NCBI GenBank assembly: GCA_945907045.1 | Contig: CAMDSH010000017.1 | Span: forward strand, 1-64,000 | DNA from: Rhizobium sp. Q54 | GTDB lineage: Bacteria > Pseudomonadota > Alphaproteobacteria > Rhizobiales > Xanthobacteraceae | Direction: 5' to 3' | Length of the DNA: 64,000 nucleotides | In this document: piece after piece, positions 1,791 through 33,898 of the stretch | Layout: every line of letters starts with the position of its first letter | How positions within the stretch are numbered: position 1 is the first letter of the stretch | Translations under genes and position numbers: made by a program | Notes under the pieces: generated by a model | What the model saw: only the letters and a program-made list of their open reading frames with translations | The model's database searches: none | Told to the model about the DNA's origin: nothing

Positions 1791-3623
1791 ATGATGGCCG
1801 CTCCCGCAGCCGTGCTGAAATCGCAACCGCGCCTGTTTCTCGGCGTCGAGTCCTCAGTGAGCGAGCGCGCGTGGCGCGACCGGCTGGACGAGCGCGGACA
1901 GGCGCGTGCCCTCGCCATCGCGCAGCGGCAAAATCTTCCCGAACTGCTGGCGCGCATTCTCGCCGGCCGGGGTGTCGAACCGGAAAACGCCGAGGCGTTT
2001 CTCGATCCCACCATCAAGGGCCTGATGCCAGATCCGGATACGCTCACCGCGATGCCGGCTGCTGCGGCGCGCATTGCCGACGCTGTAACAAGCGGCGAGA
2101 GCGTCGCGATTTTCGGCGACTACGACGTGGACGGCGCGACGTCTTCCGCGCTACTCGCGCGTTATTTAAGATTTTGCGGCCTCGATCCGGCGGTTCACAT
2201 TCCCGACCGGATTTTCGAAGGTTATGGGCCGAACGTCGAAGCGATCCGGTCATTGGCCGAGCGCGGCGCAAAGCTGCTCATCACCGTCGATTGCGGCACC
2301 ACCAGCATCGAACCGCTGGAAGAAGCGCGCAAGCTTGGGATGGACACAGTTGTCATCGATCACCATCAGGCGGACGTGGCATTGCCGACTGCGGTGGCGG
2401 TGGTCAATCCAAACCGCGCCGACGATCTTTCCGGTTTGGGCCATCTCGCCGCCGTGGGCCTCGTGTTCGTCACGCTGGTCGCGCTTAATCGCGAATTGCG
2501 CAAACGGGGTTTCTGGAATGCCGCGCGCAGCGAACCCGATCTGCTCTCGCTGTTGCACATGGTGGCGCTCGGCACCGTCGCCGACGTGGTGCCGCTCAAG
2601 GGACTTAACCGCGCTTTCGTCGCCAAGGGACTGATCGCGCTGCGGCGGCGAGATCACGTCGGCCTCACGGCATTGATGGACGCCGCGCGTTTGAGCGGAC
2701 CGCCGGAGGCGTGGCATCTCGGTTTCATGCTCGGGCCGCGCATCAACGCGGGCGGGCGCATCGGGCGTGCTGATTTGGGCGTGCGGCTGCTGCTGGAGGA
2801 AGACGTGACGGAAGCGGGGCGCATCGCCGCCGAGCTGGATCGCCTCAACACCGAGCGCCGCGCCATCGAGCAGGCGACCGTCGCGCAGGCGGAAGCCGAG
2901 GCGATGGCGTCGATGGGACTGGAGGAAAAAGGCGCGGTTGTCGTTACGGCTGCGGAGGGATGGCATCCCGGCGTTGTCGGTTTGGTCGCCGCGCGCCTGA
3001 AAGAGCGCTATGGCCGTCCGGCATTTGCGATTGCACTTGAACCCGGCGGCATCGGCACTGGTTCGGGCCGCTCGATCACGGGAGCCGATTTGGGGCAGGC
3101 GGTGCGCCGTGCTGTCGCCGAAGGGTTGCTGATGAAGGGCGGTGGGCATGCGATGGCGGCGGGCGTCACGCTACGCAAAGACAAGATCGCGCTGTTCCGC
3201 GCTTTTCTCGAAGAGACACTCGGCGCCGCGGTGGAAGCCGCCCGGCGCGAGCGCGCGCTGCTAATCGACGGCGCTGTCACTGCGAATGCCGCAAACGTCG
3301 GCCTGATATCGACCATCGCGCGCGCGGGGCCGTTCGGCAGCGGCAATCCGGAGCCGGTGATCGCGTTGCCCTCACATACAGTCGCCTATGCCGACGTGGT
3401 CGGCGAGAAACATGTACGCGTGCGCTTTAAATCCGGCGACGGCACGATGCTCAATGCCATCGCGTTCCGCGCGGCGGGAGAAGATATCGGCAATGCACTG
3501 ATTCAAAATCGCGGACGCGCGGTGCACGCCGCCGGTTCGCTGGCGATTGACCGCTGGCAGGGTGAGGAGCGTGTGCAGTTGCGCCTGATCGACGTTGCGC
3601 TGCCGGAGACGGCGAAGATTTAG
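1791..3623 (+). CDS. recJ: Single-stranded-DNA-specific exonuclease RecJ
   Basis: A 610-residue DHH-family 5'-3' single-strand DNA exonuclease used in RecF-pathway recombination and mismatch repair. DHH phosphoesterase motifs are in order: IFGDYDVDGATSSALLARYL near residue 108, LITVDCGTTS near 163, the DHH signature itself in VIDHHQADVALP near 188, and the DHHA1 part with GGGHAMAAGVTL near 449. The C-terminal RecJ OB fold follows (HVRVRFKSGDG). Two ATGs are adjacent (1791 and 1794). Its TAG overlaps the stop codon of the convergent arsR-type gene, so the two 3' ends share bases 3620-3623. Confidence 0.96.
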   Translation: MMAAPAAVLKSQPRLFLGVESSVSERAWRDRLDERGQARALAIAQRQNLPELLARILAGRGVEPENAEAFLDPTIKGLMPDPDTLTAMPAAAARIADAVTSGESVAIFGDYDVDGATSSALLARYLRFCGLDPAVHIPDRIFEGYGPNVEAIRSLAERGAKLLITVDCGTTSIEPLEEARKLGMDTVVIDHHQADVALPTAVAVVNPNRADDLSGLGHLAAVGLVFVTLVALNRELRKRGFWNAARSEPDLLSLLHMVALGTVADVVPLKGLNRAFVAKGLIALRRRDHVGLTALMDAARLSGPPEAWHLGFMLGPRINAGGRIGRADLGVRLLLEEDVTEAGRIAAELDRLNTERRAIEQATVAQAEAEAMASMGLEEKGAVVVTAAEGWHPGVVGLVAARLKERYGRPAFAIALEPGGIGTGSGRSITGADLGQAVRRAVAEGLLMKGGGHAMAAGVTLRKDKIALFRAFLEETLGAAVEAARRERALLIDGAVTANAANVGLISTIARAGPFGSGNPEPVIALPSHTVAYADVVGEKHVRVRFKSGDGTMLNAIAFRAAGEDIGNALIQNRGRAVHAAGSLAIDRWQGEERVQLRLIDVALPETAKI

Positions 3624-3967
3624 CTTTTGCTTTTCTTCTTGCCGCAGAAGACTTCGTACACCGCGCCGATGATGATGCGGGCTTCGTCGCTGGCGAGGCT
3701 GTAATAGACGATCTTGCCTTCGCGCCGCGTGGTGACGAGGCCGTCCGCGCGCAGCCGCGCGAGCTGCTGCGAGACCGTCGGCTGGCGCAGCGTCAAAAGT
3801 TTTTCAAGTTCGGTGACCGACTTCTCGCCTTCGGCAAGAATGCACAGAATCATCAGCCGGCTTTCGTGCGCCAGCGCTTTCAGAAAATCCGCCGCACGCT
3901 TCGCCTTGTCGACCATGCGGTCGAGTTCGCCGGAACGCGCGTCGCTTTCGTGAGGATGCAATTCCAT
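3620..3967 (-). CDS. ArsR-family repressor of the SqrR/BigR/SoxR (persulfide-responsive) type
   Basis: A 115-residue winged-helix regulator with the ArsR recognition region RQPTVSQQLARLRADGLV and wing RREGKIVYYSL. It has exactly two cysteines, Cys42 (LMILCILAEG) and Cys108 (YEVFCGKKK). This matches the cysteine pair of SqrR and BigR, which form an intramolecular tetrasulfide when persulfide is present and then leave DNA. No ArsR-type metal-binding CxC motif is seen. It is the last gene of a minus-strand run beginning near 5.2 kb, beside the sox genes, and probably represses them; ATTC-N8-GAAT-type elements are listed separately. SqrR/BigR versus SoxR naming cannot be settled here. Confidence 0.88.
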   Translation of the reverse strand: MELHPHESDARSGELDRMVDKAKRAADFLKALAHESRLMILCILAEGEKSVTELEKLLTLRQPTVSQQLARLRADGLVTTRREGKIVYYSLASDEARIIIGAVYEVFCGKKKSKS

Positions 3968-4011
3968 TCGTGTACTAACAAATCCTGGCGTCGCGGCGCG
4001 CAGACTACAAA

Positions 4012-4446
4012 CTATCGCCCGCTCTCGCGCAACGGGCTGGCGTTAAATATTTCTTTGCGTTCCCCACTCGTTCCCGGTGAATCGAGTTGCTTGATCAAGG
4101 CGCCGAGCAAACCCCAGAAATGATCCTCGCCGGGATAACCGCGGATGCGCCCGATCTCGCGTCCCTGATCGACCAATACGAAAAGCGGCGTGAGCCGTTC
4201 GATTTTGATGAAGGCAAGATCCACGGGAAGCGGCTGCGTTATGTCGAGGCGGCGCAACAGCGCGCGTTTGCCTTCGTCGGTTTTCGGATAAATCGGCCCG
4301 ATCTTGCGGTTGAATTCCGCGCACCACGGGCAGCCGGCTTGTTCGAACATCACCAGTTCGGCGGCGTGTGCGCGCGCAAACGACAGGAACGTCGCGCCGG
4401 CGAGCAGGATCAAGAAAAATAATTTCCGGATATGAGCTTTGCGCAA
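4012..4446 (-). CDS. Periplasmic thioredoxin-like protein, SoxS type
   Basis: I place the start at a TTG (4446) because AGGA lies 8 bases upstream and the resulting 144-residue protein begins with a clean signal peptide (MRKAHIRKLFFLILLAGATF, cleavage near AHAAEL). Longer in-frame starts would bury this signal. The redox motif is CPWC in FEQAGCPWCAEFNRK. Proteins like this in sox clusters (SoxS) are thought to keep SoxYZ or other periplasmic thiols reduced. The residues around FVLVDQGREIGRIRGYPGE match the cis-Pro-less thioredoxin-like family. It follows an uncharacterised exported protein by 25 bases and precedes the ArsR gene by 44 bases. Confidence 0.75.
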   Translation of the reverse strand: MRKAHIRKLFFLILLAGATFLSFARAHAAELVMFEQAGCPWCAEFNRKIGPIYPKTDEGKRALLRRLDITQPLPVDLAFIKIERLTPLFVLVDQGREIGRIRGYPGEDHFWGLLGALIKQLDSPGTSGERKEIFNASPLRESGR

Positions 4447-4471
4447 ACGATTATTCCTGACGCTCGCGATT

Positions 4472-5197
4472 TCAGCCGAAGCGGAAGGCGAGCAGGTTAT
4501 CGAACGAGCGTAGCTCGATAATGATGCGATGCAGCAGGTCGCTGTCACGGGTCGCGATTGCTTTCGGGATCAGCACCAGCCCGGCATTGGCGCCGTCGAT
4601 CAGGCGGCGGAATTCCGGCGCGCTGTGAATTTGCTGCGAGGCCATGCGGTCGCAGCGCGCCAGTTCGTGGCCGTAGATGGTGGCCTTGGCGGCTATGCCG
4701 AAACGGGTTTCCAGTTTCGTCCAGTCGATCCCGCGGTCGTCATAGGCGGCGAGGGCATCCATCGCGGCATTGGCGTCGAGCACGCAATCTGCCAGCACGA
4801 AGATGCCGTTCGAGCGCCGCAGCTTGGAGAGCGCGTGGCGAATGCCGGCCAGCGATTCCCGCACATTCACCGGGCGTCCGCTTTGCAGAAACATCTCGGC
4901 GGCGACGATGCGCGTGCTCACATCCGTCAGCGTCGTGCCGTAGAGTTCTCCACCGGCAAAGGCATCTGGCCGCTTGCCGGAAAAGCGCTCGACCACCGCC
5001 GCCCAGGCGGTCCGCAGCCGGCCAAGCTCTACAGCGGCAAGCTCGCGATTTTCGGTACGCAGATAACCGAGCACAACGCGGTTATGCGCTGAGGCCTTCT
5101 CCACCGCGGCGTTGAAATCGGCGAGATCGCCGGCGCATGCCAGCCTTGCGGTAAATGCGAAGCTCAAAATCGCCGCGCGGGCGATGGTCTTCCACAT
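4472..5197 (-). CDS. Exported protein of unknown function in the sox locus
   Basis: I do not recognise this family. From the ATG at 5197 (GGTGAG four bases upstream) it is 241 residues with an N-terminal signal peptide (MWKTIARAAILSFAFTARLA, cleavage likely after ACA). Further GTG starts at 5206 and 5218 are possible. The mature part is mostly helical with few cysteines and no metal or heme motif. It is the first gene of the unit with the SoxS-type and ArsR genes, and a near-match to the ATTC-N8-GAAT operator lies about 40 bases upstream. A periplasmic accessory role in sulfur oxidation is inferred from position only. It is not a CcdA/SoxV membrane protein, as only the signal is hydrophobic. 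Confidence 0.7.
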   Translation of the reverse strand: MWKTIARAAILSFAFTARLACAGDLADFNAAVEKASAHNRVVLGYLRTENRELAAVELGRLRTAWAAVVERFSGKRPDAFAGGELYGTTLTDVSTRIVAAEMFLQSGRPVNVRESLAGIRHALSKLRRSNGIFVLADCVLDANAAMDALAAYDDRGIDWTKLETRFGIAAKATIYGHELARCDRMASQQIHSAPEFRRLIDGANAGLVLIPKAIATRDSDLLHRIIIELRSFDNLLAFRFG

Positions 5198-5237
5198 ATG
5201 GCTCACCGTGGCGCTCACCGAAGTGTGACGCGCATAT

Positions 5238-5253
5238 ATCCTCTGTTATGAAT
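5238..5253. promoter_or_regulatory. Candidate SqrR/BigR-type operator, one mismatch
   Basis: ATCC-N8-GAAT, one base off ATTC-N8-GAAT, within a wider near-palindrome (ATATCC ... GAATAT). It lies between the divergent unknown-protein/soxS/arsR unit (starts 5197) and the soxW-like gene (starts 5295), so it could control both. The consensus is recalled from Rhodobacter capsulatus SqrR; binding here is inference. Confidence 0.5.
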
Positions 5254-5294
5254 ATAAACACCGCGCGACAGGGCGGCGAGAGAAGAATCGGCAC

Positions 5295-5885
5295 GTGATT
5301 TACAAGGCGAACTTGACACGGCGGAAATGGCTCCTCGGGGCGGGCGCAGCGGCGCTTGCACCGCTCGGCGGCAAGACCGTGCGCGCGGACGAACCGATCC
5401 TCACCGAGGACGGGCTCTATAAGCAGCCCTGGTATCTGGAGAGCTTTCTCGATCTCGCCGAGGACCTGGAAGGCGCCCGCAAGCAGGGCAAGCGTTTTGT
5501 CGTGGTGTGGGAGCTGCGCGGCTGCCCATATTGCAAGGAAACGCACCTCGTCAATTTCGCGCAGCCGCGGATTTCCGACTACGTGCGCAACAATTTCGAG
5601 GTGTTGCAGCTCAACATTATTGGTTCGCGTAAAGTCACCGACTTTGACGGAACGGAGATGGCGGAAAAGGCGCTGGCGGCAAAATACGGCGTTCGTTTCA
5701 CGCCGACGTTTCAGTTTTTCCCCGACACCGCGGCCGGATTAAAAACCATTCCCGCCACGAAACGCGAAGTCGCGCGCATCCCCGGTTATCTGCGCCCCGA
5801 CGATTTCCTCGCCATGTTTCATTACGTGCGCGAGAACGCCTACGAGTCGAAAAGCTTTCTCGATTTCCTGAAAGCGAAAAGTTGA
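5295..5885 (+). CDS. soxW: Thioredoxin-like protein SoxW
   Basis: 196 residues from a GTG start. The N-terminus NLTRRKWLLGAGAAALAPL is a twin-arginine signal followed by a thioredoxin-like domain with CPYC at WELRGCPYCKETHLVNF. SoxW proteins are periplasmic thioredoxins that use electrons from the membrane protein SoxV to re-reduce oxidised SoxYZ. No soxV/ccdA gene is in this cluster. The gene stands alone on the plus strand; its TGA (5883-5885) directly abuts the TGA of the convergent dsrE-type gene, the two forming the palindrome TGATCA. A generic thioredoxin-fold annotation would also be defensible. Confidence 0.8.
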   Translation: MIYKANLTRRKWLLGAGAAALAPLGGKTVRADEPILTEDGLYKQPWYLESFLDLAEDLEGARKQGKRFVVVWELRGCPYCKETHLVNFAQPRISDYVRNNFEVLQLNIIGSRKVTDFDGTEMAEKALAAKYGVRFTPTFQFFPDTAAGLKTIPATKREVARIPGYLRPDDFLAMFHYVRENAYESKSFLDFLKAKS

Positions 5886-6401
5886 TCAGCCGCTCTTCAG
5901 ATACGCAAAGCCCTTGGTCTGCAATTCAGCCACGGTCGCGACGCCGGACGGCACGTATTTCAGGAATGCGTCCTTGCGTGTCTTGTTCATGTCGATGTTC
6001 TGGCGCTTGTAGGTGATCTGACACAGATACGTCTCGACGCCGAATTTGCTCAGGCCCACGACGCGCTTGTAGAGGTCCTCGTCGATCACGTCCTTTTCCC
6101 ACGCCGTGCCGGAGCGGTCCTCAAGGAAAAATTTAAGCCCCGCGCCATGCGCGACAATGACGATTTTCACCTTCATCGTGTCGAATTCGTAGACCGAAAG
6201 GTGGTTGTTGATATTGGTCAGCATCTGTCCGAAGCGCTGCGGATCGCCGAAATCGCAGTGATAGACGCAGGCGACGTCGGTGTCTTTTTTCAGCGCCGCA
6301 AGATCGAGATTGACCGGATTGGCTTCGAGCTTGGAGGCGGCGAGCGTCGCCCCCGAAATTGCAAGCCCGCCGAGAAAATTACGCCGGCTGGTTGTGGTCA
6401 T
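5886..6401 (-). CDS. Tat-exported DsrE-family protein of the sox cluster
   Basis: 171 residues starting with the twin-arginine signal TTSRRNFLGGLAISGATLAA. The rest resembles the DsrE/DsrF-like fold: a VACVYHCDFGDPQRF start, KIVIVAHGAGLKFF in the middle and a conserved single Cys in ETYLCQITYKRQNI. DsrE proteins bind or carry sulfane sulfur on a cysteine; exported members recur in sox operons but their role is not settled. It is the last gene of soxA-soxX-dsrE, 12 bases after soxX. Sulfur handover in the periplasm is inferred from family and position. Confidence 0.78.
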   Translation of the reverse strand: MTTTSRRNFLGGLAISGATLAASKLEANPVNLDLAALKKDTDVACVYHCDFGDPQRFGQMLTNINNHLSVYEFDTMKVKIVIVAHGAGLKFFLEDRSGTAWEKDVIDEDLYKRVVGLSKFGVETYLCQITYKRQNIDMNKTRKDAFLKYVPSGVATVAELQTKGFAYLKSG

Positions 6402-6413
6402 GATCGGCCTCCA

Positions 6414-7043
6414 TCACTTGTTCACGGGACTGTCCGGGCTCATGAGTAAAGCCACCAGATCCTGCATCTGTTCCATGCTCAGGATTTTATTGGTTCCGAA
6501 GCGCGGCATCAGCGAGCACGGAAATGTGGCGTGCGAGTCGTAGATTTTCTCGTAAGCAATCTTGGCTTCGGCCGGTTTGAAGTCGCGCAGCTTGCCGTAT
6601 CCGAGCAGCGGCGGGCCGATGGTGCCATAGCTCACTTCCGCCTTGTTCAGCTGATGGCAGGCGTAGCAGTTGCCGCCGTTCGGGCGTGTCGACGGATAAT
6701 CGGTGAAACGCAAGCCGTAGCCCGATTGCGCGATGGCTTCGCCTTTTTTCCAGTCGCCGAGGAATTTGCCGTCGGCGGGATATTGGATCGTCGCCATTTC
6801 GCGCTTCTCGATGGCGGCGAAGATCGCCTTCGGCGGGCTGTTGTTGCTCGCCGAGCACTGCTTCATCGTTTCGTCCGGAGTGAGACGCGGCTGCCAAACT
6901 TCCGGCGGCGCCGGGAACTCGGGAAACGCCGCCTTGATGGCGGCATCGACACGCGCCGGATCGACCTTCGGTTTTTGTTGCGCCATCGCGCTGGAAGCGA
7001 CCAGCAGCGAAAGCGCGGCGAGGGTGAGTGAAAGTTTTTTCAT
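6414..7043 (-). CDS. soxX: SoxX, c-type cytochrome subunit of SoxXA
   Basis: The true start is the ATG at 7043, with GGGGG just upstream; the longer open frame runs into soxA. The 209-residue protein has a Sec signal (MKKLSLTLAALSLLVASSAM-AQ) and one heme c site CYACH (residues 126-130), with a candidate distal Met in CSLMPRFGTN. SoxXA joins thiosulfate oxidatively to the SoxY cysteine at the start of the Sox cycle. SoxX is the small electron-accepting subunit. It begins 14 bases after soxA. Confidence 0.93.
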   Translation of the reverse strand: MKKLSLTLAALSLLVASSAMAQQKPKVDPARVDAAIKAAFPEFPAPPEVWQPRLTPDETMKQCSASNNSPPKAIFAAIEKREMATIQYPADGKFLGDWKKGEAIAQSGYGLRFTDYPSTRPNGGNCYACHQLNKAEVSYGTIGPPLLGYGKLRDFKPAEAKIAYEKIYDSHATFPCSLMPRFGTNKILSMEQMQDLVALLMSPDSPVNK

Positions 7044-7057
7044 GTTTGCCCCCGCCG

Positions 7058-7882
7058 TTAGCGCTTGAGGCCGGGGACGGAAATATCGCCGCCCTTGGCC
7101 TGGTTGGTGAGATAAGAAATCAGCGCGACGGTGACATCCGAGCCGAGTTCCGGTTCGGGCAGGCGCATCTGCCAATAGCAGTCGACCAGCCGGTGCTGCA
7201 TCGTCATGACGTGCGCGTTGGAGACGCGATAGGCGGGCCATTCGCCGACCACCTTGGCCGCAGCTTTCGGATCGGCGAGGTGCGCGAGACCTTGCAGGCG
7301 AATGCGCTTGCCGGATTCGGCATGGCAGGTTGTGCAGGCAAAATCGAACGGCCCGGAGCGCCGGTTGAACAGAGTCTCGCCGAGCGCGAGTACTTCTTTC
7401 TCTTTCGGATGCGCGAACTTGGCGGCGTATTTCATGCCGCTCGACTTGCTGGCGACATAGGTCGCGAGCGCGCCAGTGTCTTTCACCGGCGCTCCGCCGC
7501 CCGGATGCGGGCGCTTGATCAGATCGGCATGGCTAAAGCCCTGCAATTTTTCCTGGCACCACAACAGCCGCGATTCCAGGTCCATCACCTTGCCGGCGTC
7601 GGCAAAAAAGCGTGGCAGCTCTGCGAACGCGCCTTCAACCTTGCCGGGGCCTTTGCCGAGGTCGCACTTCTCAAGCGACACTTTGTTCGGGCCGCGCGCT
7701 GTTTTCCACAGGGCCTCGCCGCGATCTACGTCGAGAAATCCGGGGTTGCTCCAGGGGTCCGCCCTGAGCATTTGCCGGTATTTCTCGATGGCTTTCTCGG
7801 TGTCGGCATCCTGCGCCGCTGCGAAGGAGACCGCAGCCGTGGCGGCGCAAACCACCGCAAGCAGCGTTCGTTTGAGCGTCAC
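7058..7882 (-). CDS. soxA: SoxA, L-cysteine S-thiosulfotransferase subunit, monoheme form
   Basis: The start is set at a GTG (7882) because GGAGG lies 7 bases upstream and a signal peptide follows (TLKRTLLAVVCAATAAVSFA). The 274-residue protein has one heme site CTTCH (183-187) and the catalytic cysteine Cys235 in RLVDCYWQMR, the cysteine whose persulfide ligates heme. Cys73 and Cys109 stand where diheme SoxA proteins carry a second heme or, in monoheme ones, a disulfide, so this is the one-heme type. With SoxX it forms the periplasmic SoxXA complex. It is transcribed away from soxY. Confidence 0.94.
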   Translation of the reverse strand: MTLKRTLLAVVCAATAAVSFAAAQDADTEKAIEKYRQMLRADPWSNPGFLDVDRGEALWKTARGPNKVSLEKCDLGKGPGKVEGAFAELPRFFADAGKVMDLESRLLWCQEKLQGFSHADLIKRPHPGGGAPVKDTGALATYVASKSSGMKYAAKFAHPKEKEVLALGETLFNRRSGPFDFACTTCHAESGKRIRLQGLAHLADPKAAAKVVGEWPAYRVSNAHVMTMQHRLVDCYWQMRLPEPELGSDVTVALISYLTNQAKGGDISVPGLKR

Positions 7883-7964
7883 TTGTTGATCCTCCGTGCG
7901 ATTTTTTGTCTCAAGGTTCTTCTTTGGCTTCTTATTGGGGTTGTTGTGGGCCGGATAAGAATAC

Positions 7965-7980
7965 ATGCATTGTTTTGAAT
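7965..7980. promoter_or_regulatory. Candidate SqrR/BigR-type operator in the soxA/soxY divergent region, one mismatch
   Basis: ATGC-N8-GAAT, one base off ATTC-N8-GAAT. It lies in the 186-base divergent intergenic region that must hold the promoters of soxAX-dsrE (leftward) and soxYZB (rightward). A second inverted repeat, TTCCA-N5-TGGAA, is at 7997-8011. Both are read from sequence; their use by the ArsR regulator is inferred. Confidence 0.4.
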
Positions 7981-8068
7981 GGAAAGGGACGTTATCTTCC
8001 AGTCCTTGGAATTTGCGATGCACCGTCGACTCGGCACGAGCAGCACGGCTGCGAGCAGGAGACACCAA

Positions 8069-8521
8069 ATGACGTTGATCTTCAACCGCCGGCAGGTTTT
8101 GGCTTACAGCGCGGCAGCGGCCGCGGTGTTGAGCGGTACAATCAAACCTGCTGCCGCGGCGAACGACTCCGCTGAGCTGATCAAGAAATTCACCGGCGGC
8201 AAGACACCGCAACAGGGCCGCGTCAAACTCGACTTGCCGGAAATCGCCGAAAACGGAAATACCGTTCCGATGACGGTCGTGGTCGAAAGCCCGATGACCG
8301 AGCAATCCTACGTGAGCGATGTCATGGTCGTCGCAGACGGCAATCCGAACGGCGGCGTGGTCACCTTCCACTTCTCGCCCGCGAGCGGCGTGGCGGAAGC
8401 CAACACCCGCATCCGGCTCGCGACTTCGCAGGACATCATCGCGGTCGCAAAAATGAATGACGGATCGTTCTTCATGGCCAGCAAGCCGGTGAAGGTGACG
8501 ATCGGCGGCTGCGGCGGCTGA
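8069..8521 (+). CDS. soxY: SoxY, sulfur-carrier protein
   Basis: 150 residues from the ATG at 8069, which has AGGAG 8 bases upstream; an upstream in-frame ATG at 7979 would add a non-signal extension. A twin-arginine signal is present (FNRRQVLAYSAAAAAVLSG). The protein ends in GGCGG, with Cys148 on the flexible arm that carries thiosulfate, sulfane and sulfonate intermediates among SoxXA, SoxB and SoxCD. SoxZ, which has no signal, is exported with it as a complex. First gene of soxYZ-B. Confidence 0.96.
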   Translation: MTLIFNRRQVLAYSAAAAAVLSGTIKPAAAANDSAELIKKFTGGKTPQQGRVKLDLPEIAENGNTVPMTVVVESPMTEQSYVSDVMVVADGNPNGGVVTFHFSPASGVAEANTRIRLATSQDIIAVAKMNDGSFFMASKPVKVTIGGCGG

Positions 8522-8561
8522 TAAAGAGCCGGAAGCTAAGAAAAGTTTTCAGGAGGATTCG

Positions 8562-8885
8562 ATGGCGGTTCCGCGCATCAAGCTCGACAGAAAAGAAGCG
8601 AAGAAGGGCGAACTCGTCGAGGTCAAGGCCCTCGTGTCGCACGTCATGGAATCCGGCCAGCGCAAGGACAGCGCAGGCAAGACCATCCCGCGCAAGATTC
8701 TCAACAAGTTCACCTGCACCGTAAACGGCAAGGCCGTTTTCTCCGCCGATTTCGAACCGGCGGTCGCGGCCAATCCGTACATCCAGTTCAAGTTCAAGGC
8801 GCAGGAATCGGGCAAGGTGGAACTGACTTGGACCGACGACGACGGCTCCAAGATCGTCGGCGAAGAGACCATCACGGTAACCTGA
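8562..8885 (+). CDS. soxZ: SoxZ, sulfur-carrier scaffold protein
   Basis: 107 residues without signal peptide, the normal SoxZ size, starting MAVPRIKLDRKEAKKGELVE after an AGGAGG site. It has the immunoglobulin-like beta fold pattern and includes VSHVMESGQRKD and FKAQESGKVELTW, both typical of SoxZ. It forms a heterodimer with SoxY and travels through the Tat pathway on the SoxY signal. It begins 40 bases after soxY. Confidence 0.96.
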   Translation: MAVPRIKLDRKEAKKGELVEVKALVSHVMESGQRKDSAGKTIPRKILNKFTCTVNGKAVFSADFEPAVAANPYIQFKFKAQESGKVELTWTDDDGSKIVGEETITVT

Positions 8886-8975
8886 CGCGTCTTAATCCTT
8901 CCGGCGGCGGCGTATCGCCCGTGCGGAGACACGCAGCGGCGATATTTACGGGCTGCGAATCTGGCGGGCTGATCG

Positions 8976-10661
8976 ATGTTTTCCAGGCGCGACTTCCTGC
9001 AACTCGCGGCGGCCACCGCGGCGGTCTTGCCGCAAACCTCGGTGCGCGCCTTCGCGCAGCAGCGGCTGACGCAAGCCGACCTTCTTAAATTCAATGCGCT
9101 CGGCAATGTCACGCTGATGCACATCGCCGATGTGCACGGCACGCTGACGCCGGTTTATTTCCGCGAGCCGTCGGTCAATCTCGGCGTCGGCGACGTCAAG
9201 GGTTTGCCGCCGCACATCAACGGCAAGACGTTTTTAACCCGCTACGGTATTCCGGAGAAATCCGCCGCCGCTTACGCGCTTACGTTCGAGGATTTCGAGG
9301 CGCTGGCGAAAACCTATGGCCGCATCGGCGGGCTGGATCGCGCGGCGGCGGTGCTCAAGGCGGTGCGCTCGGAGCGCGGCGAGGACAAAGTGCTGTTCCT
9401 CGACGGCGGCGACACCTGGCAGGGCTCGCTCGGCGCCAACCGGAGCAAGGGCCAGGACATGGTCGATTGCTTCAAGCTGCTCAAGCCCGACGCCATGACG
9501 GGCCATTGGGAATTCACCTACGGCGAGAAACGGGTGAAGGAGATCATCGACGGTCTCGGTTTCCCGTTCCTCGCGTTGAACATTCGCGATACCGAGTGGC
9601 AGGAGCCGGTATTCGAGGCCTTCAAGCTGTTCGACAAAGGCGGCGTGAAGGTCGCCGTGCTGGGGCAGGCGTTTCCCTATACACCGGTCGCCAATCCGCG
9701 CTGGCTGATGCCGAAATGGTCTTTCGGAATTCGCGAGGATGAAGTGCGCGCCACGGTCGATAAGGCCCGAAAGGCCGGCGCGCAGCTTGTGGTGCTGCTT
9801 TCGCACAACGGCTTCGACGTGGACCGCAAGCTCGCCGCGCGCGTCGCCGGCATCGACGTGATCCTGACCAGCCACACCCACGATGCGCTCCCTGAAGCGG
9901 TCAAAGTCGGCAAGACGCTGCTGATCGCCAGCGGCAGCCAGGGAAAATTCATCTCTCGCCTCGATCTCGATGTGCGCGACGGCGCGGTGAAGGATTTCCG
10001 CTACAAATTGATCCCGCTGTTCGCCGATGTCATCCAGCCTGATCCCGAAATGAAAGCGGCCATCGAGAAAGCGCGCGCGCCTTACGCCACCGAACTCGCG
10101 CGCGTGGTCGGGCGCACGGATTCTCTGCTGTACCGGCGCGGCAATTTCAACGGTACCTTCGACGATCTCATTTGTTCGGCGCTGATCAAGGAGCGCGACG
10201 CCGAGATCGCGCTCTCGCCCGGTTTCCGCTGGGGTGCGAGCGTGCTCCCCAACAGCGCCATCACGGTCGAAGACATCCACAGCGCTACGGCGATCACCTA
10301 TCCGAACGCTTACCGGATGACGATGAGCGGCGAGCGGCTGAAGGAAATTCTCGAAGACGTCGCCGATAATCTGTTCAACCCCGATCCGTATTACCAGCAG
10401 GGCGGCGACATGGTCCGCTGCGGCGGGCTTGGTTACACGATCGACATCGCCAAGCCGCAGGGCCAGCGCATCTCGGGAATGACTTTTCTCAAAACCGGCA
10501 AGGCGATTGAGCCGAAGAGGGATTACACGGTCGCCGGCTGGGCGAGCGTCAATGAGGGAACCGAAGGCCCGCCGATCTGGGATGTGGTCGAGCGCTACAT
10601 CGCACGCGAAAAAGTCGTCATGGTTGCGCCCAACACCAGCGTGAAAATCGTCGGGGCATAA
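8976..10661 (+). CDS. soxB: SoxB, thiosulfohydrolase (dimanganese)
   Basis: 561 residues with a Tat signal (FSRRDFLQLAAATAAVLPQ). It belongs to the 5'-nucleotidase/metallophosphatase superfamily; metal-binding segments in order are LMHIADVHGTL (near residue 47), FLDGGDTWQGS (near 142), MTGHWEFTYG (near 175), VLLSHNGFDVDRKLA and LTSHTHDALPE. SoxB hydrolyses the SoxY-bound S-thiosulfonate to release sulfate, using two Mn ions. The second domain (from about 360) is the substrate-recognition 5'-nucleotidase C-terminal domain. A 90-base gap separates it from soxZ with no terminator visible. Confidence 0.96.
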   Translation: MFSRRDFLQLAAATAAVLPQTSVRAFAQQRLTQADLLKFNALGNVTLMHIADVHGTLTPVYFREPSVNLGVGDVKGLPPHINGKTFLTRYGIPEKSAAAYALTFEDFEALAKTYGRIGGLDRAAAVLKAVRSERGEDKVLFLDGGDTWQGSLGANRSKGQDMVDCFKLLKPDAMTGHWEFTYGEKRVKEIIDGLGFPFLALNIRDTEWQEPVFEAFKLFDKGGVKVAVLGQAFPYTPVANPRWLMPKWSFGIREDEVRATVDKARKAGAQLVVLLSHNGFDVDRKLAARVAGIDVILTSHTHDALPEAVKVGKTLLIASGSQGKFISRLDLDVRDGAVKDFRYKLIPLFADVIQPDPEMKAAIEKARAPYATELARVVGRTDSLLYRRGNFNGTFDDLICSALIKERDAEIALSPGFRWGASVLPNSAITVEDIHSATAITYPNAYRMTMSGERLKEILEDVADNLFNPDPYYQQGGDMVRCGGLGYTIDIAKPQGQRISGMTFLKTGKAIEPKRDYTVAGWASVNEGTEGPPIWDVVERYIAREKVVMVAPNTSVKIVGA

Positions 10662-10676
10662 CTGCGAATTTATTAT

Positions 10677-10692
10677 ATTCAATATACCGAAT
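10677..10692. promoter_or_regulatory. Perfect ATTC-N8-GAAT element before soxC
   Basis: ATTC (10677-10680), eight bases, GAAT (10689-10692), in an AT-rich patch within otherwise GC-rich DNA, 60 bases before the soxC ATG. This is exactly the motif recalled for the persulfide-sensing repressor SqrR. It suggests that soxCD (and perhaps soxEF) has its own promoter under the ArsR protein encoded at 3.6-4.0 kb. Confidence 0.65.
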
Positions 10693-10751
10693 GTGATATA
10701 GACGAGAAAACCAACAAGAAAAAGATTTCAGGGACGCTCGGGAAACGCCGG

Positions 10752-12029
10752 ATGAGCAAGAGCAAGGATCCCCAAGGCATCGAGAAGGGGACATCGCGCC
10801 GCCGCTTTCTCACCGGCGCGGCGGGCCTTGTTGCCGGCAGCGCCGCGCCGCGCGCGCTTGCCGACAACGCCAAGAACCAGCCGCCGAATGTCGCCGACTG
10901 GACACGCTCGCTCGGCGATGGCGTCGCGGTTCGCCCTTACGGCAATCCGTCGAAGTTCGAAAAGCACATCATTCGCCGCGATGTGCAGTGGCTCACCGCC
11001 AGCCGCGAGTCTTCGGTGAGCTTCACGCCGCTGCATGAACTCGACGGCATCATCACGCCGAGCGGTCTTTGTTTCGAGCGCCATCATTCCGGCATCGCGG
11101 AGATCGATCCCGCCGATTACCGGCTGATGTTGCACGGCCTCGTCGACAAGCCGCTGATGCTCACGCTCGACGATCTCAAGCGTTTTCCGCGCGTGAACAA
11201 AATCTATTTCCTCGAATGCGCCGCGAATTCCGGCATGGAGTGGCGCGGCGCGCAGCTCAACGGCTGCCAGTACACCCACGGCATGGTGCATTGCGTGGAA
11301 TATACCGGCGTGCCGCTGAAAGCTTTGCTGGCCGAAGCCGGGCTCAAGACAAACGCGAAATGGATCATGGCCGAAGGCGGCGACGCGGCGGCGATGAACC
11401 GGTCGATCCCGCTTTCAAAAGCGCTCGACGATTGCCTCGTCGCGTATCGGATGAACGGCGAGATGCTGCGCCCGGAGCAGGGCTATCCCGCGCGTCTCGT
11501 GGTGCCGGGCTGGGAGGGCAACATCTGGGTGAAATGGCTGCGCCGTCTGAAAATCGGCGACCAGCCATGGGAGACGCGCGAGGAGACGGCGAAATACACT
11601 GACCTTCTGGCGGATGGCAAAGCGCGCAAGCACACGTTCGTGATGGACGCAAAATCCGTCATCACCTCGCCGTCGCCGCAGGCGCCGGTCCGGCAAAAGG
11701 GCTTCACGGTCATCACCGGACTCGCATGGTCGGGGCGAGGCAAGATCAAGCGCGTCGATGTCTCGCTCGACGGCGGCAAGAACTGGCGCGCGGCGCGCAT
11801 CGATGGCCTCGTGCTCGACAAGGCCTGTGTGCGTTTCTATTACGAGCATGAGTGGAACGGCGAGGCGCTGCTACTGCAGTCGCGCGCCATCGATGAGAGC
11901 GGTTATGTGCAGCCGGGCAAGGACGCATTGCGAAAAATTCGCGGCGTGAATTCGATCTACCACAACAACGGCATTCAGACCTGGCATCTCAAGCCCGACG
12001 GCGAGGTTGAGAATGTCGAGGTCGGTTAG
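10752..12029 (+). CDS. soxC: SoxC, molybdopterin subunit of sulfane dehydrogenase SoxCD
   Basis: 425 residues with a twin-arginine signal (SRRRFLTGAAGLVAG). It is a sulfite-oxidase-family molybdoenzyme; the molybdenum-binding cysteine is in IYFLECAANSGMEW (near residue 157). A dimerisation (Mo-co dimer) domain fills the C-terminal third. SoxCD oxidises the outer sulfur still bound to SoxY, giving six electrons per turn; organisms with SoxCD usually oxidise thiosulfate fully to sulfate instead of storing sulfur. It overlaps soxD by 17 bases. Confidence 0.95.
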   Translation: MSKSKDPQGIEKGTSRRRFLTGAAGLVAGSAAPRALADNAKNQPPNVADWTRSLGDGVAVRPYGNPSKFEKHIIRRDVQWLTASRESSVSFTPLHELDGIITPSGLCFERHHSGIAEIDPADYRLMLHGLVDKPLMLTLDDLKRFPRVNKIYFLECAANSGMEWRGAQLNGCQYTHGMVHCVEYTGVPLKALLAEAGLKTNAKWIMAEGGDAAAMNRSIPLSKALDDCLVAYRMNGEMLRPEQGYPARLVVPGWEGNIWVKWLRRLKIGDQPWETREETAKYTDLLADGKARKHTFVMDAKSVITSPSPQAPVRQKGFTVITGLAWSGRGKIKRVDVSLDGGKNWRAARIDGLVLDKACVRFYYEHEWNGEALLLQSRAIDESGYVQPGKDALRKIRGVNSIYHNNGIQTWHLKPDGEVENVEVG

Positions 12030-12684
12030 CGCGCTCGTTGCGCTATTGATGCTGGCGCTCGCTGCGCCCGCGCCCGCGCAAACGAAAAATTCAAAACCCG
12101 GTCTCGGTATCGGCCGCGTGGCAACGCCCGCCGAGATCGCCGGTTGGGACATCGACGTGCGCCCCGACGGGCAGGGCGCGCCAACCGGCTCCGGCTCGGT
12201 CAAGGCGGGCGAGGAAATCTACATGAGCAAATGCGCCGCCTGCCACGGCGAGTTCGGCGAAAGCGCCGGGCGCTGGCCGCAAGTGGCGCAGGGCAAAGGC
12301 ACGCTCGCCTCGCACGATCCGGTTAAAACCGTCGGCTCGTATTATCCCTATCTCTCCAGCGTGTTCGATTATGTTCGCCGCGCGATGCCGTTCGGCGACG
12401 CTCAGTCGCTTTCCAACGATGAGCTTTACGCCGTTGTCGCGTACTTGCTGTTCCTCAACGATATCGTCGACGACAAATTCGTGCTCTCGAAGGAGACCTG
12501 GTCGAAGGTAAAGATGCCGAATGCGGGCGGCTTTTTCGAAGACGACCGCGCGACGTCGGAGCGCTCGTTCTGGGGCCGCAATCCGTGCATGAGCAATTGC
12601 CGCCCGGCGGTGAAGATTTTAAACCGCGCGCGCGTGCTCGACGTGACGCCGGACGAAAAGAAGCCGGGCCACGGCGTCGACTAG
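12013..12684 (+). CDS. soxD: SoxD, cytochrome c subunit of sulfane dehydrogenase, short monoheme form
   Basis: I choose the ATG at 12013 (GAGG seven bases upstream) over the TTG at 12007. The 223-residue protein has a Sec signal (MSRSVSALVALLMLALAA) and one heme site CAACH (74-78), plus a conserved C-terminal NPCMSNCRPA. SoxD of Paracoccus is a diheme protein of nearly 400 residues; this one has only the first heme domain and a normal stop, so it is the short type and not a broken gene. It is coupled to soxC by overlap. Confidence 0.9.
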   Translation: MSRSVSALVALLMLALAAPAPAQTKNSKPGLGIGRVATPAEIAGWDIDVRPDGQGAPTGSGSVKAGEEIYMSKCAACHGEFGESAGRWPQVAQGKGTLASHDPVKTVGSYYPYLSSVFDYVRRAMPFGDAQSLSNDELYAVVAYLLFLNDIVDDKFVLSKETWSKVKMPNAGGFFEDDRATSERSFWGRNPCMSNCRPAVKILNRARVLDVTPDEKKPGHGVD

Positions 12685-12847
12685 GGCGTTTTGCCGCACG
12701 AGAGCATTCGTTCTCCCGCCGCCGCCGCCACGCGCGCGATGTACTCTATGGGTAGAGAAAAAGAGAATACGTTCCGCGCCGGTTTGAAATCGATTTTTCA
12801 TTCCATAACGGGACGGGTCTAAGTTTCGGCGGAAAGCTTCGGGGGCG

Positions 12848-33136: not shown

Positions 33137-33898
33137 ATGATTGCGCCCGATCTTGAGAGTGCCATCGATCGCCTGCGTGAGCTGGTCGAGGATGCCCGCG
33201 TCATCCTGCCTTTTACCGGGGCGGGGATATCGACCGAGTGCGGCATACCCGATTTCCGCTCGCCCGGCGGGTTATGGACCAAGAACAAGCCGATTCCGTT
33301 CGACGAATTCGTCTCCAGTCAGGAGATGCGCGACGAGGCATGGCGGCGGCGCTTCGTGCTGGAGGAAAGTTTTGCCAGGGCAAAGCCCGGCCGCGGCCAT
33401 CTCGCGCTCGCAAGCCTGCATCGCGCCGGTAAAGCGCCCGCGCTGGTGACCCAGAACATCGACAATTTGCATCAGAACTCCGGCTTTCCCGCCGAACACA
33501 TCGTCGAATTGCACGGCAACACCACTTACGCGACCTGTCTCGACTGCGCGACACGTTACGAGATGGGCTGGGTGCGGAAGAAATTCGATGCGCAACGACG
33601 CGCGCCCGATTGTCCGGCCTGCGGCGGCTACATCAAGTCGGCCACCATCTCGTTTGGGCAGTCGATGCCGGCCGAACCGATGCAGCGTGCCGAGAATTTG
33701 ACCAACGCGTGCGATTTGTTTCTCGCCATCGGCTCTTCCTTGGTGGTGTGGCCTGCCGCCGGCTTCCCGCTGATGGCGAAACAAAACGGCGCAGGCCTCG
33801 TCATCATCAATCGCGAGCCGACGGAATTCGACGGCATCGCCGATCTGGTGGTGCGGCAGGACATCGGCGACGTGCTCGCGCCATTCATAGCCCACTGA
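33137..33898 (+). CDS. cobB: NAD-dependent protein deacylase (sirtuin, CobB-like)
   Basis: 253 residues. Sirtuin motifs in order: GAGISTECGIPDFRSPGGLW, TQNIDNLHQNSG, catalytic His in VELHGNTTYA, zinc cysteines CLDC and CPAC, and ISFGQSMP, FLAIGSSLVVWPAAGFP. It removes acyl groups from lysines using NAD. The ATG has only a weak ribosome site. The divergent gloA gene may share the promoter region. Confidence 0.94.
   Translation: MIAPDLESAIDRLRELVEDARVILPFTGAGISTECGIPDFRSPGGLWTKNKPIPFDEFVSSQEMRDEAWRRRFVLEESFARAKPGRGHLALASLHRAGKAPALVTQNIDNLHQNSGFPAEHIVELHGNTTYATCLDCATRYEMGWVRKKFDAQRRAPDCPACGGYIKSATISFGQSMPAEPMQRAENLTNACDLFLAIGSSLVVWPAAGFPLMAKQNGAGLVIINREPTEFDGIADLVVRQDIGDVLAPFIAH

Follow-up and report, generated by a model that had tools for sequence, protein, structure and literature searches.

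SoxR is a known sulfane-sulfur-responsive repressor of sox genes, and its described relatives provide the framework for the locus reported here. SoxR of Hyphomicrobium denitrificans binds the gap between soxA and soxY, and polysulfide, by bridging the protein's two cysteines with sulfur, strongly weakens this contact (PMC10451225). In Bradyrhizobium diazoefficiens, a soxR mutant has raised expression of soxS, soxV, soxW and soxY1 without thiosulfate (PMC5748708). SqrR of Rhodobacter capsulatus serves genes of sulfide-dependent photosynthesis (PMC10451225) and has the site ATTC-N8-GAAT, which is missing from one promoter to which the E. coli homologue YgaV binds (PMC9774250), while BigR of Xylella and Agrobacterium controls a sulfur transferase/dioxygenase operon (PMC5823870). 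The window analyzed here, a stretch of 64,000 nucleotides from Rhizobium sp. Q54 (GenBank assembly GCA_945907045.1, contig CAMDSH010000017.1, positions 1 to 64,000; family Xanthobacteraceae), holds a complete Sox system at 3620-12684, and a winged-helix protein of the ArsR family is encoded inside the cluster. This protein is very probably SoxR, a local repressor of the sox island that would act through three conserved predicted operators and be released by sulfane sulfur.

As in H. denitrificans, Paracoccus and Pseudaminobacter salicylatoxidans, the window combines an ArsR repressor carrying the same cysteine pair with sox genes and soxS (PMC10451225). It differs in having a complete Sox system with SoxCD and a separate candidate soxC operator, whereas H. 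denitrificans has a truncated Sox system, sHdr and a second repressor, sHdrR (PMC10451225). No second strong SoxR relative was found in the Q54 genome assembly (3.3 Mb, 74 contigs, 91% complete), where the three other matches were 33-39% identical, with E values of 2.8e-7 or worse. Among Bradyrhizobium relatives, the SoxR of one locus (L087) is 70% identical across 97 residues. SqrR shares the fold, the cysteine pair and the ATTC-N8-GAAT core (PMC9774250), at 56-62% identity between the window protein and the R. capsulatus SqrR structures, and differs in an extra cysteine, Cys9 (seen in PDB titles and in the alignment), and in the genes served. BigR shares the fold, at 41-45% identity, and the common cysteine pair (PMC10451225), and differs in its target operon; the window protein also falls under the NCBIfam cut-off for BigR.

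The original prediction held that the ArsR protein has just two cysteines, Cys42 and Cys108, matching the SqrR/BigR sensing pair, and this was borne out. They are the sole cysteines of the 115-residue protein, both are present in 81 of 81 aligned sequences (that of the window included), and they align with the SqrR cysteines, equivalent to C50 and C116 of H. denitrificans SoxR. The total number of cysteines is exactly two in 68 of the 81 sequences and three in the remaining 13. A phmmer search of the PDB returned R. capsulatus SqrR at the top (E 2.7e-32), followed by BigR (6.1e-22) and HlyU (1.3e-19), with the metalloregulators SmtB, CzrA and CadC farther off (6e-9 to 6e-6). The AlphaFold model had a predicted local distance difference test score (pLDDT) of 85.9, and its eight best Foldseek matches were all SqrR structures, those of the disulfide and tetrasulfide forms among them. 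BigR (NF040642) was the best-scoring NCBIfam family, yet at 107.9 bits it did not reach the cut-off of 155. Homologs at E <= 1e-15 were present in 73 of 100 genomes of the family. SoxR is the best name for the protein, and the sensing of persulfide or other sulfane sulfur would follow from its homology.

An exact ATTC-N8-GAAT, which the original prediction had named as the SqrR motif and which is indeed in print as such (PMC9774250), is located at 10677-10692, and forms with one mismatch each are located at 5238-5253 and 7965-7980; all three sets of coordinates were confirmed. The sites lie in the gaps between the gene at 4472-5197 and the soxW-like gene trxW (5219-5294), between soxA and soxY (7889-8068), and between soxB and soxC (10662-10751), respectively. 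When the gaps were shuffled, the probability of an equally good match was 0.030, 0.10 and 0.0066, in that order; these gaps were picked by the finding itself, and the evidence from the window on its own is no more than moderate. A second exact core, at 33293, is inside an open reading frame (ORF) of 253 residues and has poor flanks. The three sites stand above chance because they are conserved in relatives and because the core is embedded in a longer, flanking palindrome.

To score this longer palindrome, a symmetric matrix was made from 46 distinct sites in relatives, with the window's own sites left out, giving the consensus tAYATTC-N8-GAATRTa. Since selection of the training sites required a core with no more than one mismatch, the core is built into the matrix. 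Across 63,969 positions of the window, the site at 10677 ranked first (31.0), that at 5238 second (21.0) and that at 7965 third (19.7), and the next position scored 14.0. Ranks 1-3 were kept when L038 was removed, when only soxC sites were used for training, and when only soxY sites were used after removal of the three loci with the window's layout. Because a ranking by the matrix only is partly circular, flank-only and permutation tests were added. Scored by their flanks, the three sites again ranked 1-3 among 19 cores, with flank scores of 14.7, 9.7 and 9.0, followed by 2.6 for the next core. Among 20,000 composition-keeping permutations, the flank score was reached by 125 for the 5238 site, 156 for the 7965 site and 366 for the 10677 site.

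Of 254 genome loci encoding a SoxR relative, the best 80 were compared for conservation; many of them are closely related (20 were assigned to a Bradyrhizobium group and 9 to a Stappia group), and the counts are not independent. Sox genes were present in 57 of the 80 loci (some of which are short or cut), and in 70 a soxS-like homolog was encoded on the same strand, at most 1.1 kb from soxR. The exact core preceded soxC in 13 of 45 loci (0.2 expected), trxW in 17 of 43 (0.2 expected), the homolog of the 4472-5197 gene, on the other side of the trxW gap, in 17 of 47 (0.5 expected), and soxY in 13 of 57 (0.4 expected). It was found once upstream of soxS (59 loci), and never upstream of soxR (80), soxA (50), soxB (49), soxZ (57), soxD (40), soxX (7), dsrE (3) or the small cytochrome gene (10). 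With spacings from 4 to 13 allowed, the soxC, trxW and soxY gaps contained exact cores only at a spacing of 8, apart from one in a soxY gap at a spacing of 4. Conserved operator-like palindromes are thus found in the sox promoter gaps. In the soxB-soxC gap, compared in up to 12 near relatives, the sequence has diverged except for a palindrome resembling TTACATTC-N8-GAATGTGATAA, which is imperfect in L064 and L067. The candidate operator at 7965 is conserved in L038, L064 and L067 (ATACATnCATTG..TTGAATG) and is not at that place in L051, L069 and L074, and, for the 5238 site, a right half resembling GAATATA is kept in the trxW gaps of several relatives.

The placement of the sites varied between groups. 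Matrix scores of at least 17 occurred before soxC in 15 of 18 loci outside the two named groups, in 7 of 9 Stappia-group loci and in 0 of 18 Bradyrhizobium-group loci, and before soxY in 18 of 29, 0 of 9 and 0 of 19, respectively. The Bradyrhizobium-group loci differ from the window in this respect; there, trxW is preceded by such a site in 19 of 19 cases. Over all groups, scores of at least 17 were reached before soxS in 2 of 59 loci and before soxR in 1 of 80. The sites appear to follow the way in which each group has divided the cluster into units. In the 80 loci, the stretches up to 250 bp before sox-cluster genes (134,760 bp) contained 73 matrix matches of at least 17, compared to 49 in the remaining 1,138,831 bp, a density about 13 times higher, with training sites included.

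The check that had been proposed, a genome-wide scan for ATTC-N8-GAAT, partly bore out the refuting condition named with it, that the motif occurs at random places: the core by itself is not good evidence, and the extended palindrome and its conservation had to be added. A second model, R1, built from 35 sites in relatives, found the soxC site as its best match in the Q54 genome (E 0.006, on both strands of one place); its sole other match (E 0.59, C52) had no recognized sulfur gene beside it. The extended pattern with at most two mismatches occurred at 50 places, compared to 5 for a reversed control. Six places had at most one mismatch, two of which are the candidate operators at 10677 and 5238 (that at 7965 has two mismatches); at the other four, no sulfur gene was recognized by eye, and no family search was run there. 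With two more of the 50 places added to these four, six other genome sites were inspected by eye, and no sqr or other sulfur target was recognized beside them. On the R1 search and these six sites, the regulon looks local to the sox island.

Similar sites were also sought more widely. In 61 genomes of the family, seven had a match at E <= 0.02. Four of these matches were at sox genes (that of Q54 included), one immediately preceded an ArsR gene, and two were elsewhere. In 199 genomes of the order, some of which may be of species used for training, 55 had a match at E <= 0.05. Of 29 newly fetched loci from this order-wide set, 12 had sox genes, among them 10 of the 13 best-scoring. Eight of the 17 others were inspected, the remaining nine being covered by the sox search: a pyridine nucleotide-disulfide oxidoreductase (L158), a rhodanese (L153) and a TauE-type exporter (L154) lay near the site in three, and no sulfur gene was recognized in five. 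The extended palindrome was seen near L158 1561-2976 (the disulfide oxidoreductase), L153 1586-2131 (the rhodanese) and L164 1539-1820 (an ArsR gene), where the predicted sites are as expected for those of the SqrR/BigR type.

These observations can be combined into a model of the circuit. Without thiosulfate, a SoxR dimer with Cys42 and Cys108 in the dithiol state would occupy tAYATTC-N8-GAATRTa at three places: a divergent gap with trxW on one side and the 4472-5197 gene, soxS and soxR on the other, the divergent gap between soxXA and soxYZB, and the promoter of soxCD. Oxidation of thiosulfate or sulfide would bring sulfane sulfur into the cytoplasm, where a sulfur bridge would form between Cys42 and Cys108; the bridged SoxR would leave the DNA, and all three units would be transcribed. 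We infer DNA binding and repression at these sites, along with co-transcription of soxR with the genes upstream of it and the resulting autoregulation. There was no operator-like site directly upstream of soxR, which lies 44 bp downstream of the soxS-like ORF, itself downstream of the 4472-5197 gene; the latter is probably the first gene of the soxS-soxR unit. The 5238 site would therefore control soxR if the genes are co-transcribed. The original prediction of one regulon covering three sox promoters and the repressor itself is thus upheld, at the level of predicted sites, for the three promoters, and for the repressor only by way of the 5238 site. A further possible promoter lies in the gap at 12685-12847, before a small cytochrome gene and the gene for a flavocytochrome c sulfide dehydrogenase flavoprotein (FccB). 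This gap contained none of the window's 20 best matrix positions, and the cytochrome/FccB pair may therefore lie outside the regulon or be read from upstream.

Several results weigh against three functional operators under SoxR. The core is not specific: exact copies were found at 40 places in the Q54 genome (2 for the reversed control), and the window contained 19 cores with at most one mismatch where 25.2 were expected, so that such near-cores are no more frequent than by chance. The scan of window and genome with the bare core did not discriminate, and was rejected as evidence. Training on trxW sites alone dropped the 7965 site to rank 17, and training on Bradyrhizobium/Stappia-type sites alone dropped the 5238 site to rank 4. 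Matrices made from random ATTC-N8-GAAT sites placed all three sites among the top 10 in 76 of 100 runs and among the top 3 in 2; the ranking is therefore partly driven by the core. R1 did not report the 5238 and 7965 sites in its genome-wide search, and one genome site inside an ORF scored 23.5, above both, and four others 17-20, so that by score these two are not unique in the genome. Among the relatives, one-mismatch cores also occurred at other spacings (spacing 6 at trxW in 9 of 43 loci, spacing 13 at soxY in 9 of 57), and a score of at least 17 before trxW was found in just 5 of 24 non-Bradyrhizobium loci. No strong sox match was present in 17 of the 29 order-wide loci, and sigma-70 scans at the window's operators gave no convincing promoter.

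We considered whether control of sox by the ArsR protein runs solely by way of the strong site before soxC, with the 5238 and 7965 sites as chance near-matches or decayed remnants. Their scores (21.0 and 19.7) overlap those of other genome sites, their shuffle probabilities are 0.03 and 0.10, their left halves are imperfect, and each loses rank in one hold-out. This explanation is nevertheless improbable, given that the flanks place all three sites at the top of the 19 cores, that relatives keep the matching sequences in the soxY and trxW gaps described above, and that soxY gaps outside the Bradyrhizobium and Stappia groups reach 17 in 18 of 29 loci. It is also quite improbable that the linkage to sox is real while the signal is a metal or plain redox rather than sulfane sulfur. 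The signal is supported here by the cysteine pair and homology alone, and plain oxidation to a direct disulfide also abolishes DNA binding of H. denitrificans SoxR (PMC10451225); on the other hand, the nearest solved relatives are SqrR structures, the pair is present in every one of the 81 sequences, and the metalloregulators are far weaker matches than SqrR (6e-9 to 6e-6, compared to 2.7e-32). Highly improbable, finally, is a BigR or SqrR for sulfide detoxification that merely sits beside sox and has its main targets elsewhere: the BigR model scored best in NCBIfam but stayed under its cut-off (107.9 of 155), and other genomes do have similar sites just before an ArsR gene (L164) or near rhodanese or disulfide-oxidoreductase genes, but no sulfur target was recognized by eye beside the six other Q54 sites examined, and the repressor gene is accompanied by a soxS-like neighbor in 70 of 80 loci and by sox genes in 57.

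Taken as SoxR with three operators, the circuit is well supported yet ordinary, the repressor family, the signal and the targets having already been described. What is added is an extended, sequence-level consensus for SoxR operators in Hyphomicrobiales, together with the position of a candidate operator of its own for soxC. The consensus is tied to the soxC, soxXA/soxYZB and trxW/soxSR gaps in several groups, making the sox regulon predictable from genomes, and the operator sequences are exact probes for gel shifts. In the accessible SoxR literature, binding and derepression are reported and a SoxR consensus was not found; PMC12423496 mentions repeats (its Figure S6), and Mandal 2007 and Rother 2005 may give operator sequences.

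A further possibility, which we think rather unlikely, is that the strengths of the three operators are graded by design, soxCD being held most tightly, so that complete Sox systems would have a staged release with delayed negative feedback. The less tightly repressed SoxXA and SoxYZB would appear first, and sulfane sulfur bound to SoxY would be the source of the signal for SoxR; upon full release, SoxCD would be made, the sulfane sulfur would be oxidized, and the signal would end. Support for this is slight: a matrix trained on soxY sites gave 25.1 for the soxC site and 24.8 for the soxY/A site (31.0 and 19.7 with the full matrix, with 21.0 for the trxW site). Ten loci had both the soxC and the soxY site at or above 17; the soxC score was the higher one in 8 of them with the full matrix, in 10 after training on Bradyrhizobium trxW sites, and in just 3 after training on soxY sites.

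Table 1. Genes and candidate operators of the sox island, in window coordinates.
Feature	Position	Strand	Evidence or remark
soxR, ArsR-family repressor gene, 115 aa	3620-3967	-	Pfam HTH_5, E 1.3e-13
soxS-like thioredoxin (ORF limits)	4012-4548	-	weak Pfam Thioredoxin_2, E 0.004, under cut-off
Secreted-looking helical protein, family not recognized	4472-5197	-	ATG at 5197
Operator 1 (candidate), ATCC-N8-GAAT	5238-5253		between divergent 4472-5197 gene and trxW
soxW-like thioredoxin, here called trxW	5295-5885	+	Pfam Thioredoxin_2, E 5.5e-19
DsrE/F-like protein with twin-arginine translocation (TAT) signal	5886-6401	-	Pfam DsrE, E 2.6e-8; TAT model 22.7 bits, cut-off 16.7
soxX	6414-7043	-	TIGR04485, 89.9 bits, cut-off 61
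soxA, GTG start (from translation)	7058-7882	-	TIGR04484, 227.4 bits, cut-off 110
Operator 2 (candidate), ATGC-N8-GAAT	7965-7980		between divergent soxXA and soxYZB
soxY	8069-8521	+	TIGR04488, 148.7 bits, cut-off 125
soxZ	8562-8885	+	TIGR04490, 112.2 bits, cut-off 76
soxB	8976-10661	+	TIGR04486, 843.9 bits, cut-off 550
Operator 3 (candidate), exact ATTC-N8-GAAT	10677-10692		before soxC; extended palindrome ~10670-10698
soxC, molybdopterin subunit	10752-12029	+	Pfam Oxidored_molyb, E 4.3e-53; Mo-co_dimer, E 3.9e-20
soxD-like cytochrome c (ORF limits)	12007-12684	+	Pfam cytochrome c families; homolog adjoins soxC in relatives

The cluster is listed in Table 1; the small cytochrome gene and the FccB gene follow downstream of soxD. 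The true start of the soxS-like ORF is probably near 4447. The protein encoded at 4472-5197 matched no Pfam or NCBIfam family, and its model (pLDDT 93.4) gave no fold match in the PDB at E 0.001. Homologs are encoded in 49 of the 80 SoxR loci, and in 43 of these their gene adjoins, and is divergent from, the sox thioredoxin gene. The homologs have a pair of invariant cysteines and, at the C-terminus, a conserved ELRSFDNLLAFRFG. The protein is an unnamed Sox companion. The DsrE/F-like protein carries a TAT signal and is therefore probably periplasmic; its gene adjoins soxX and is present in just 3 of the 80 loci (L038, L064 and L067).

Of the 14 trxW sites used for training, 12 have a promoter-like pair straddling the core, 7 bases before it. 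The pair is TTGTCA-N16-TATCAT in 11 and a variant in one, all in the Bradyrhizobium group, and is only suggestive.

Two layouts of soxXA were seen among the relatives. In the window and in L038, L051, L064, L067, L069, L074 and L100, soxXA is divergent from soxYZB. In others (e.g., L039 and L042), a soxA/soxX-like match, 23-31% identical, lies between soxZ and soxB, and the two arrangements suggest that soxXA may have been replaced or transferred.

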